This document shows positions 28,390 to 31,187 of a stretch of DNA of 64,000 bases, in pieces. The DNA comes from Zeimonas sediminis (GTDB lineage: Bacteria > Pseudomonadota > Gammaproteobacteria > Burkholderiales > Burkholderiaceae_E). Positions within the stretch are counted from its first letter, which is position 1. Each line of letters opens with the position of its first letter. A program made the position numbers and the translations under genes. Location: positions 2,763,671-2,827,670 of the forward strand of contig NZ_JAMQYE010000001.1 of assembly GCF_023721795.1 (NCBI RefSeq), in the 5' to 3' direction. Below the pieces are notes generated by a model. That model ran no database searches, was not told the DNA's origin, and worked only from the letters and a program-made list of their open reading frames with translations.

Positions 28390-29589
28390 ATGATCGATTT
28401 CGCCGACATCGAAGCCGCCGCCGGCCGCATCCGCGGCCAGGTGGTCGAGACCCCCTGCCTGCTGTCGCGGATCCTGTCCGACATCACCGGCGCGCAGGTC
28501 TTCCTGAAGTTCGAGAACCTGCAGTTCACCGCGTCCTTCAAGGAGCGCGGCGCGTTGAACCGGCTGTCGCAGCTCGACGAAGCGCAGCGCCTCCGCGGCG
28601 TGATCGCGGTGTCGGCCGGCAACCACGCGCAGGGCGTGGCCTGGCACGCGAAGCGGCTCGGCATTCCCGCCACGATCGTGATGCCGCGCTTCACGCCCGG
28701 CGTCAAGGTGATGCGCACCCGCGAGTTCGGCGCCGAGGTGGTGCTGCACGGCGAGCGCTTCGACGACGCGCGCGAGCAGGGCCTGAGGCTGGCCGCCGAG
28801 CGCGGGCTCACGATGATCGACCCCTTCGACGACGACCTGATCATCGCCGGGCAGGGCACGATAGGCATCGAGATGCTGCGCGCCCAGCCGGAACTCGACG
28901 AACTGGTCGTGCCGATCGGTGGGGGCGGGCTGATCGGCGGGATCGCCACCGCCGCCAGGCACCTGAAGCCGGGCATCCGGGTCACCGGCGTGCAGACCGA
29001 GCGCTTCGCGCTGGTCTACGACGCGATAAAGGGCACTCGCCACGAGGTCGGCGCCGGTTCGATCGCCGAGGGCATCGCGGTCAACCGGCTCGGCGAGCGC
29101 ACGCTGCCGATCATCCGCGAGCGGGTCGACGACGTCGTGCTGGTCGGCGAAGGCGACATCGAGCAGGCGATCCTGCTGTTGCTGGAGGTCGAGAAGACGG
29201 TCGTCGAAGGCGCGGGCGCCGCTGGCCTGGCGGCCCTGCTGCGGCACCCGGACCGCTTCCGCGGCCGGCGCGTGGGCCTGGTGCTGTGCGGCGGCAACAT
29301 CGATCCGCTGCTGCTCGCGTCGATCATCGAGCGCGGCATGGTGCGCACCGGTCGGCTCGCCAGGCTCTACGTGGACATCCGCGACGTGCCCGGCGCGTTG
29401 TCCCACGTCACCGGCATCCTCGCCGAGGAGCAGGCCAACATCGAGCAGATCCGGCACGAGCGGGCCTTCGGCAGCGTGGGCTCGCAACGCGTCGAGGTGG
29501 AGATCGTGGTGCAGACGCGCGGGCCGGAGCACGTGCAGGCGCTGCTGGCGCGGCTGGCGGAGGCGGGGTTCGCGGCGCGGACCGGGTAG
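28390..29589 (+). CDS. Threonine ammonia-lyase (catabolic type, C-terminal ACT-like domain)
   Basis: The 399-residue PLP enzyme converts L-threonine to 2-oxobutyrate and ammonia. The PLP lysine is K51 in [30 protein letters not shown] and the phosphate-binding glycine loop [10 protein letters not shown] (about 175-184) are diagnostic. Residues from about 325 ([19 protein letters not shown]) form a single ACT-like regulatory domain, as in the about 400-residue degradative/TIGR01127-type enzymes rather than the 500-residue biosynthetic IlvA. It lies 100 bases after the E1 gene on the same strand, giving a two-step threonine to propionyl-CoA module. Confidence 0.93.
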
Positions 29590-29600
29590 CGCGCTCTCGC

Positions 29601-29628
29601 GCTCGGCGCTCGGCGCTCGGCGCTCGGC
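29601..29628. repeat. Four tandem copies of a 7-bp unit (GCTCGGC)
   Basis: Four exact GCTCGGC units follow the threonine ammonia-lyase stop. The flanking bases GCTCTCGC and GCCCGC look like decayed units. Slippage of a GC-rich spacer is enough to explain it. Confidence 0.9.
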
Positions 29629-29633
29629 GCCCG

Positions 29634-29848
29634 CGGCTGTGCCGGGAGGCGGGGACCCGGGTGCGGGTGCGCTGTCGCCTTCGGCGAAACGCTTGGTCGC
29701 GCGGGCGTTCAGCCCCGTCGCGGACCCCAACTCGCCGGCCCTTCGGGCCGGCTCAGACAAGGGTCCGCTCTCGCTGCGCTCGCCGGGTCTTCACTGCGCT
29801 CCCGCGCCAGCGCACAAGCACCCGGGCCCCCGCCTCCCGGCGCAGCCG
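29634..29848 (+). repeat. About 215-bp palindromic element, left copy
   Basis: Terminal arms of 31 bases (29634-29664 and 29818-29848) pair with one A-C mismatch and one G-U. Inside is a core shared with the inverted copy 190 bases to the right: GTCGCCTTCGGCGAAACGCT and CCGGGTCTTCACTGCGCTCC segments. An inner stem (GCGGACCC at 29720-29727 with GGGTCCGC at 29761-29768) encloses an 8-bp hairpin, GCCGGCCC-TTC-GGGCCGGC (29734-29752). No protein is encoded. It is either a small non-autonomous mobile element or a structured RNA. The 186-base stretch to the right copy shows no gene or clear motif. Confidence 0.85.
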
Positions 29849-30034
29849 CTGGATTCGGTGGCGTTCGGGAGCCGGAACGGCTCGGACGGCACGACGTCGC
29901 TGGGTCTCGAGTCGCTCGCCGCGCTTTCGCGTCCGCTTATGCTCTCGCCGTCGCCATTCCCGTCGCCTTCGGCCCAGTCACGATTCGTCGCGGCCTCGAG
30001 GGTGGTCTGCGGCCTCGTCGCGCTCCAGTCTCCA

Positions 30035-30248
30035 GCGACCGGGGCGGGGCTCGGCTTTCCGGGCGCGTGTGCGCTGGCGCGGGAGCGCAGTGAAGACCCG
30101 GCGAGCGCAGCGAGAGCCGGCCCACTGTTCGAGGGAGCGAAGCGACCGAGTTTGGGCCGGCGACGGGGCCGAACGCCCGCGCGACCAAGCGTTTCGCCGA
30201 AGGCGACAGCGCGCCCGCGCCCGGAAAGCCGAGCCCCGCCCCGGTCGC
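30035..30248 (-). repeat. About 214-bp palindromic element, right copy (inverted)
   Basis: Perfect 33-bp terminal inverted repeats (30035-30067 and 30216-30248) flank a core that, read on the minus strand, matches the left copy over about 110 of 148 bases. The terminal arms are unrelated in sequence to those of the left copy, yet pair with each other. The inner stem is GCCGGCCCA (30116-30124) with TGGGCCGGC (30153-30161), a paired variant of the left copy's stem. It ends about 40 bases before the putative hbd -10. Confidence 0.85.
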
Positions 30249-30288
30249 GGGCGCAAGCCGCCACCGAAGAACCACTCTCGAGGCCCGA

Positions 30289-30294
30289 TAGAAT
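30289..30294 (+). promoter_or_regulatory. Candidate -10 for the hbd gene
   Basis: TAGAAT lies 38 bases before the start codon and 40 bases after the palindromic element. The -35 position (GAAGAA) is weak. Confidence 0.4.
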
Positions 30295-30332
30295 CCCCCC
30301 ATCTCCAACGCAACGACATGAAGGACCCCGAA

Positions 30333-31187
30333 ATGAGCATCCAGACCGTCGGCATCATCGGCGCCGGCACCATGGGCAACGGCATCGCGCAGGCCTGCGC
30401 GGTGGCCGGCATCGACGCGATCATGCAGGACATCAGCGACGCGGCGATCGAGAAAGGCCTGAAGACCGTGTCCGGCTCGCTCGACCGACTGGTCAAGAAG
30501 GGCTCGATCGACGAGGTCCGCAAGCTCGAGGTGCTGTCGCGGATCAGGGCCACGACCAATCCCGAGGACCTGGGCGCGGCCGACCTGATCATCGAGGCGG
30601 CCACCGAGAACGAGGCGCTCAAGGTCAAGATCCTGCAGAACGTCTCGGGCATCGCGAAGCCCGGGGCGATCGTGGCCACCAACACCTCGTCGATCTCGAT
30701 CACCCGGCTGGCCAATGCCACCCACCATCCGGACCGCTTCGTCGGGATGCACTTCTTCAACCCGGTGCCGGTGATGGCGCTGGTGGAGATCATCCGCGGG
30801 CTGCGCACCTCCGAGGAGACGGTGGCCACGGTCACCGAGCTGGCCGAGCGGCTCGGCAAGACCCCGATCGGCGTGAAGAATAGCGCCGGCTTCGTGGTCA
30901 ACCGGATCCTGTGCCCGATGATCAACGAGGCGATCTTCGCGCTGCAGGAGGGGCTGGCCAGCGCAGAGGAGATCGATGCCGGCATGAAGCTGGGCTGCAA
31001 TCACCCGATCGGCCCGCTCGCGCTGTGCGACCTGATCGGACTCGACGTCGAGCTGGCGGTCATGGAAGTGCTGTACGACAACTTCAACGACCCGAAGTAC
31101 CGGCCTGCGCCGCTGCTGCGCGAGATGGTCGATGCCGGGATGCTGGGCCGAAAGACCGGCCGCGGCTTCTACGACTACTCGAAGTGA
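30333..31187 (+). CDS. hbd: 3-hydroxybutyryl-CoA dehydrogenase
   Basis: The 284-residue NAD(P)-dependent enzyme oxidises or forms 3-hydroxyacyl-CoA. The Rossmann signature [13 protein letters not shown] (GxGxxG at 10-15) is followed by the catalytic-dyad block HFFNPVPVM with H140, then [14 protein letters not shown]. The C-terminus [13 protein letters not shown] is typical of the short Hbd/PaaH type. The start is chosen at MSIQTV because AAGGA is properly spaced. An ATG 15 bases upstream has no ribosome site. It stands alone, convergent with the Crp gene. It could serve butyrate, PHB or phenylacetate metabolism. Confidence 0.94.

Follow-up and report, generated by a model that had tools for sequence, protein, structure and literature searches.

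Paired palindromic repeats with a common structured core and largely locus-specific arms at gene ends of Zeimonas

INTRODUCTION

REPINs are described as short extragenic hairpins that are dispersed as inverted doublets with a spacer and are proposed to be units (PMC3116915). In quasipalindrome correction, imperfect inverted repeats are made perfect by copying from arm to arm (PMC8604942, PMC7202029, PMC3820800), and template switching is reported to homogenise the arms of inverted repeats (PMC8604942). In C. elegans, inverted repeats that are long and nearly perfect are reported to show signs of active maintenance (PMC1803023), and the enterobacterial RU elements are presented as MITE-like, small, non-coding intergenic mobile repeats (PMC2229807, PMC2759123).

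Here we describe a pair of palindromes from Zeimonas sediminis (genome G000 of our set), found in a window of 64,000 nucleotides, by which we mean the whole stretch of DNA that was analysed (contig NZ_JAMQYE010000001.1, positions 2,763,671 to 2,827,670). The pair is part of a genuine family of structured repeats, found sporadically throughout the class, whose organisation is closest to that of REPINs. As in the published outline of REPINs (PMC3116915), the elements are non-coding, extragenic and hairpin-forming, and they are dispersed as inverted doublets with a spacer. Unlike REPINs, the halves are about 215 bp long, with a multi-helix core and largely locus-specific arms, which evolve in concert and may contain copies of host flank. 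Also unlike REPINs, the two genomes that are richest in the element, Z. sediminis and Zeimonas arvi CC-CFT501 (G007), gave no match to the Y1 transposase domain (PF01797). The central module common to the copies comprises 54 positions, far more than a REP. The accounts of quasipalindrome correction that we consulted deal with individual, mostly short repeats, whereas here arms of 30-190 bp flank a conserved core at dozens of sites. The nematode repeats involve homologous gene pairs, and the consulted part of that report does not mention a dispersed structured core. Being small, non-coding and intergenic, the elements resemble RU elements as these are summarised. RU-type elements have ends that their copies share, whereas here it is the ends that vary.

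RESULTS

Two oppositely oriented palindromes in the window

The window contains two palindromes, at 29633-29849 and 30035-30248, that are oppositely oriented and have a common core and different arms. The pair, which the initial annotation had picked out, is genuine. Upstream, a plus-strand open reading frame (28390..29589) encodes a threonine dehydratase-like protein with PALP and ACT domains (PF00291, PF01842), and its stop codon lies 5' of the left copy. Downstream, a plus-strand open reading frame (30333..31187) carries 3-hydroxyacyl-CoA dehydrogenase domains according to a domain search.

The left copy is in sense orientation on the plus strand. It consists of an outer locus-specific arm (29633..29664), a structured core (29665..29817) and an inner arm (29818..29849) that is complementary to 29633-29664 except for a few positions. 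The edges of the core are formed by a two-base mismatch and a short GTGCGCTG/CAGCGCAC helix. Within the core, a central module of the form AACTCG-hairpin-CTCAGACA (29718..29771, plus strand; contig positions 2793388-2793441 in covariance model R1) lies within a covarying outer helix. A spacer (29850..30034, no strand) separates the left copy from the right copy, whose sense strand is the minus strand: inner arm 30035..30067, core 30068..30215, central module 30113..30163 (model R1 hit at 2793783-2793833) and outer locus-specific arm 30216..30248. As inverted repeats, the left copy has 46-nt arms (29633-29678 / 29804-29849, score 31), of which the outer 32 nt are locus-specific, and the right copy has arms at 30035-30080 / 30203-30248, of which the outer 33 bp (30035-30067 / 30216-30248) are perfectly complementary. 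The two copies match each other in inverted orientation over 108 and 93 nt at 84% identity. The spacer has a homologous sequence in Z. arvi; spacers of other pairs, compared by eye, are unlike it save for a short motif next to the arm.

That the palindromes exceed chance is borne out by a scan of the 64-kb window for inverted repeats (score at least 18, loop up to 500), in which all four rows obtained are the pair itself or cross-matches between its copies, so that these are the sole strong inverted repeats there. When 400 kb of the Z. sediminis genome picked around known copies was added, 18 of 18 rows (score at least 20, loop up to 260) contained an element or joined two copies, one row being an element with a collapsed core. 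Against dinucleotide shuffles, the RNA fold z-scores of the two window copies are -11.8 and -9.3. The suggestion that no protein is encoded also holds: long mechanical open reading frames cross the region, yet gene calls based on GC frame leave it empty.

A dispersed family with a common central module

Searching with the right copy by blastn gave 12 long copies in Z. sediminis, long matches in 10 of the 18 genomes of the genus, and short matches only in nine more of the 101 genomes searched. The core is thus neither restricted to this locus nor tied to one set of arms, the two outcomes that would have spoken for a simple local duplication. The pattern AACTC N(6-36) CAGACA matched 27 times in Z. 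sediminis compared with once for the reversed control, and 21 of the 27 matches were taken as members because the hairpin was present. Copies outside the subtype of the window share the central module AACTC-hairpin-CTCAGACA within an outer helix. From 21 modules we built covariance model R1, with 54 positions. At E<=0.01 it found 33 hits in Z. sediminis (32 strong and one near E 0.008), 30 in Z. arvi and 21 in genome G004, where 9 of the 21 are weak, near E 0.008. These nine hits are nearly equal (26.3 bits) and suggest another related repeat in that genome.

Model R1 has hits at E<=1e-4 in 25 of 74 genomes from the family, in 19 of 399 from the order and in 16 of 369 from the class. Counted by genera, with the own genus included, the central module occurs in 12 of 159 sampled in the order and 12 of 272 in the class. 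Among 12 distant members that were checked, five carry arms of 27-43 nt (L293, L295 and three of G028) and seven show weak symmetry alone (scores 9-17). Pairs of the same architecture are present in another family of the class (G668). Many distant members of the order (L166, L167, L169, L171-L174, L181, L183, L184, L186) have a T-rich TTACTTTCTTTGCTTCGCCAAAGAAAGTAA-like hairpin, which lies on the 5' side and replaces the private arms. A single exact match of a 19-nt core pattern outside the genus, in one of 31 stretches, comes from Rhodopseudomonas palustris (L264) and is possibly due to chance.

Searches for the T-rich hairpin and for sequence strings of the wider family in an open-access library gave no paper, and among the titles and abstract openings that general queries of this library listed, none describes the family. 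Rfam gave no matches in 20 loci, and for 29500-30400 one match at E 0.21, below the threshold of its family. A plasmid or phage origin was considered and dropped, as one type-I core had no blastn match in plasmid or phage collections. A search for PF01797 (Y1/RAYT) found none in Z. sediminis, Z. arvi or G004; 3 of 18 genomes of the genus have it at E<=0.001, two of them over the cut-off, and each of the three has zero or one model hit. Contigs of draft genomes often begin or end in or beside elements (G008 C3, C31, C37; G006 C62, C168, C170, C226; G013 C31, C37). Because contigs break there, copy numbers in draft genomes are lower bounds and are probably under-counted.

Pairing and placement at gene ends

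Cores of the halves measure about 125-150 nt, and the spacer between facing halves is roughly 100-200 bp. All 23 pairs of neighbours less than 700 bp apart are in +/- order (11 in Z. sediminis, 9 in Z. arvi and 3 in G004), and no other order occurs. Of 62 copies examined in Z. sediminis and Z. arvi, 61 have a called outer gene. This gene reads toward the copy in 53 of the 61, and 51 of these 53 genes end 14-105 bp from the arm. The eight exceptions are four halves of pairs, including the right copy of the window, and four single copies. The gene context of the 61 copies is convergent in 40, co-directional in 21 and divergent in none. In 464 kb of background, gaps of 40-900 bp are convergent in 24/200 and divergent in 40/200, and gaps of at least 300 bp in 8/30 each; in reading this comparison, the gene calls come from a simple GC-frame method, copies of the two species are partly orthologous, and some background gaps contain elements. 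Where a pair separates two co-directional genes, its second half lies ahead of the following gene with its orientation reversed.

The block between two neighbouring pairs is inverted in Z. arvi relative to Z. sediminis (L131:15175-16889, G000 C1 about 1195175-1196889, against L194:3669-1957, G007 C1), the outcome expected of recombination between inverted copies.

Structure of the core and the folding strand

The central helices of the core covary strongly. In the 21 modules, paired cells make up 89.3%, two-sided changes are found at 13 of the 15 base pairs, and 89 cells are changed on both sides compared with a mean of 35.8 in shuffles and 13-28 in slid structures; these figures are inflated, since the modules were chosen by pairing. 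Only four cells are G.U. The core subtype may differ between the halves of one pair, as at 982448 and 982812.

The types of loop and of mismatch suggest that the molecule that folds is the antisense strand. The fetched loci, which overlap and include distant genomes, contain 95 distinct central modules, 89 of them with a triloop. This triloop is GNA on the antisense strand in 65, GNA on the sense strand in 5 and neither in 19, with a C-G closing pair in 85. An extraordinary stability is reported for DNA mini-hairpins whose loop is GNA (PMC4686876). By eye, the antisense strand has tandem GA/AG in the internal loops of the core. In the outer 26 arm positions of 59 copies from Z. sediminis and Z. 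arvi, A.C mismatches outnumber G.T on the sense strand by 22 to 4, drawn from 47 mismatches in 1533 pairs (binomial by hand about 0.0005, two-sided, with copies treated as independent although orthologs are not). For 25 elements of other genomes the numbers are 14 and 7, and for G028 alone 0 and 2. An excess of A.C over G.T is evidence against selection acting on an RNA of the sense strand; it favours processes on the antisense strand, whether folding, transcription or damage. On the other hand, the mismatch at the junction of core and arm is purine-purine on the sense strand (by eye), which counts against a fold of the antisense strand only.

Two altered copies were noticed. The second half beside 157350 of Z. 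arvi C1 (L198:1787-1979) has kept its arms and outer core while another hairpin has taken the place of the central module, so that the core looks modular. At L115:15658-15777 (G000 C1 about 1475658-1475777), an internal deletion has collapsed the core to 42 nt and the 39-nt arms persist.

Arms are largely private to each locus

In Z. sediminis and Z. arvi, 60 of the 62 copies have an inverted repeat with a score of at least 22, and the arms of 55 of these 60 are 30-46 nt long; in type-I copies this length includes the terminal helix of the core itself, about 8-14 nt. The arms in the group of G004 are mostly 100-200 nt, with two sites at about 40 or fewer. Of 12 G004 cores parsed from 13 modules, five share one sequence and another three are a single base away from it; the arms of these eight copies measure 103-190 nt and mostly fail to match one another. 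Among the 12 outer flanks (100 nt each) from G004, three pairs match at E<=1e-4: one at 88% over 95 nt (sites 335543 and 2064530), one at 80% over 45 nt and one over 19 nt. For 150 random pairs of non-orthologous arms from Z. sediminis, the mean identity is 0.564, compared with 0.518 for shuffled arms. Two Z. sediminis pairs located 2 kb apart between different genes are 86.7% alike over 524 and 538 bp; their right halves have common arms, and in the left halves the cores are near-identical and the arms differ. These data show that the arms are largely private to each locus. The initial proposal of a shared core with unshared arms, the reverse of what is usual for transposon ends, therefore stands across the genome and the genus, except at a few sites where the arms are related.

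Arms diverge between species and stay self-complementary

Sixteen pairs of orthologous copies from Z. sediminis and Z. arvi were compared. Their cores are 87.5% identical and the 60 bp beside the inner arm 71%, and their left arms agree at 79% of aligned positions (67% relative to the longer length). Complementarity of the arms within a copy amounts to 94.0% and 95.1%. Of 542 arm columns, 408 are the same, 92 are changed on both sides, 26 on one side and 16 otherwise; as the arms were delimited by complementarity, both the within-copy percentages and the ratio of two-sided to one-sided changes are biased toward a concerted reading. Adding four doubtful pairs gives 112 two-sided, 30 one-sided and 20 other columns of 652. 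Four ortholog pairs had been dropped from the 16-pair count. Three of them (982812/64294, 1194728/139069, 1421363/315511) have short or rearranged arms; in 49716/44254 the Z. arvi pair is 1,178 bp apart and consists, by eye, of a separate element upstream of a host gene and a coreless remnant. Uncorrected drift of more than 20% in each arm should have produced many more mismatches than are observed, so complementarity is kept while the arms drift like spacer. The arms are thus shown to diverge about as fast as spacer DNA and yet to remain self-complementary, changing on both sides.

An arm copied from a host gene end

At a gene with a MaoC domain in G004, the outer arm starts inside the gene and takes in 50 nt of the coding end and the stop codon. 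The inner arm is an inverted copy of this sequence, matching at 39 of 47 aligned coding positions and then at 139 of 140 positions beyond, and the stop codon TAG reads TGG in the copy. The coding end is conserved in G013, G008 and G005, which identifies the outer copy as the original. Since the inner arm is a decayed inverted copy of the gene end, host flank was the source of the arm at this locus. The arms that G005 has here are different and intergenic, and there too the last 15 nt of the gene are mirrored with one mismatch. Flank copying was therefore seen at one locus in two genomes with long arms (G004, G005); this analysis uses only the hand-checked MaoC locus, as automatic alignment of arms to open reading frames overran into unrelated or partner sequence. 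No arm reaching a coding end was found in Z. sediminis and Z. arvi, bar two doubtful cases of 3 and 6 nt. In G014 both halves are absent from the MaoC locus and the gene end is fused to the former spacer, which looks like a deletion across the palindrome.

Presence and absence at orthologous sites

At the site of the left window copy Z. arvi has a copy with changed arms, and the right copy is represented there by a small hairpin that shares its outer 14 bp and lacks a core. Reading the window locus by eye down to the next gene in eight relatives (G002, G004, G005, G008, G010, G011, G013, G015), we found no element; G014, where the contig ends early, G017 and G003 were left out of this comparison. 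At the surE locus, an 851-bp stretch of G004 that includes a pair is lacking in G013. G014, G005 and G015 likewise have no pair there, and G008 keeps the right half at a contig edge. As G008 has this half, G013 probably lost the pair. Judged from these comparisons of sequence, both gain and loss of elements are possible.

In G005 about 11 kb lie beside a copy (L260:1527-12529, contig C4), and G004 has only the element pair at this locus. An autonomous element with cargo between its halves was rejected as an explanation, since the translated open reading frames make the 11 kb look like a type I restriction-modification island.

DISCUSSION

Our interpretation is that these are REPIN-like paired repeats in which template-switch copying, promoted by the folded core, keeps rewriting the arms, and we give this reading a probability of roughly one half. 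When a replication fork meets the core, the antisense strand, with its C(GNA)G loops and tandem G.A mismatches, would fold, and the nascent strand would switch template within the core hairpin. Copying would run inward, the outer flank being copied into the inner flank, the direction seen at the MaoC locus in G004 and G005. Repeated copying could lengthen the arms and re-equalise them after mutation, which would leave them free in sequence, self-complementary and private to each locus. The core itself might be kept by selection or by conversion among copies and might spread through some activity acting in trans; it would persist at gene ends because insertions are tolerated there. Template switching in bacteria is usually described for much shorter repeats. 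Open-ended copying also does not account for the narrow range of arm lengths in Z. sediminis and Z. arvi, where 55 of 60 fall within 30-46 nt.

Among the other explanations, an RNA element at mRNA 3' ends (a terminator, a stabiliser or an RNase III substrate), whose arms stay paired through compensatory mutation, survives best, although we consider it unlikely. The placement and orientation of the copies behind stop codons (53/61), the strong covariation of the core and the very stable folds of the window copies would all be expected of such an element. However, A.C mismatches exceed G.T on the sense strand, which is the reverse of wobble tolerance, and the core helices contain few G.U pairs. 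No terminator-like site was found in 29560-30340 (0.5 in shuffles), and none of the 62 copies has TTTTT in the 60 nt after the inner arm. Furthermore, arms copy coding sequence, and between co-directional genes the second half stands in front of the next gene in the other orientation.

It is improbable that the elements are conventional non-autonomous transposons (MITEs), of which a transposase inserts the whole arm-core-arm unit or the pair and whose arms then drift. Such insertion would suit the two neighbouring Z. sediminis pairs that are alike between different genes and have right halves with common arms, the surE-site pair of G004 that is missing in four relatives, and the identical cores at several G004 sites, some of them with related arms. 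Against it, the ends are mostly not conserved between copies, and drift alone would not preserve the complementarity of the arms. Target-site duplications, which the initial annotation had proposed to look for, were not established: two junctions inspected by eye have short shared words, none of them convincing. A transposase was not found either, in a search limited to PF01797.

Very improbable is a third scenario, in which long palindromes were there first and cores inserted into their centres, which would make the arms the targets. The small hairpin that Z. arvi has at the right-copy site, with the 14 outer bp and no core, and, by eye, the coreless remnant at a second Z. arvi site might be taken for such targets. 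We read these small hairpins as deletion remnants, because part of the inner arm is missing and a collapsed core of 42 nt exists elsewhere. Pre-existing targets are disfavoured since the 464 kb scanned contain no long palindrome without at least a collapsed core, and the arms differ between orthologs. Membership among the REP/REPIN elements driven by a RAYT, still less credible despite the inverted, extragenic, hairpin-forming doublets, was rejected because PF01797 had no match in Z. sediminis or Z. arvi, and it does not fit halves of about 215 bp with private arms.

Within the template-switch reading, a more far-reaching version is possible but doubtful: the element may be one that writes palindromes, the folding of its core making the replisome copy host sequence, coding ends included, inverted to the other side. 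If this were true, the two arms would stay matched as long as the core is intact, and the terminal repeats would be a product of the core, made anew at each locus, and not a signal for moving. Long palindromes are usually unstable in bacteria. Here, dozens of them persist at gene ends, many in pairs, with arms that are renewed. The family would thus be a natural record of template-switch copying, in which direction, tract length and rate may be read between close species, and it would be a repeat family whose terminal repeats look like an effect rather than a cause.
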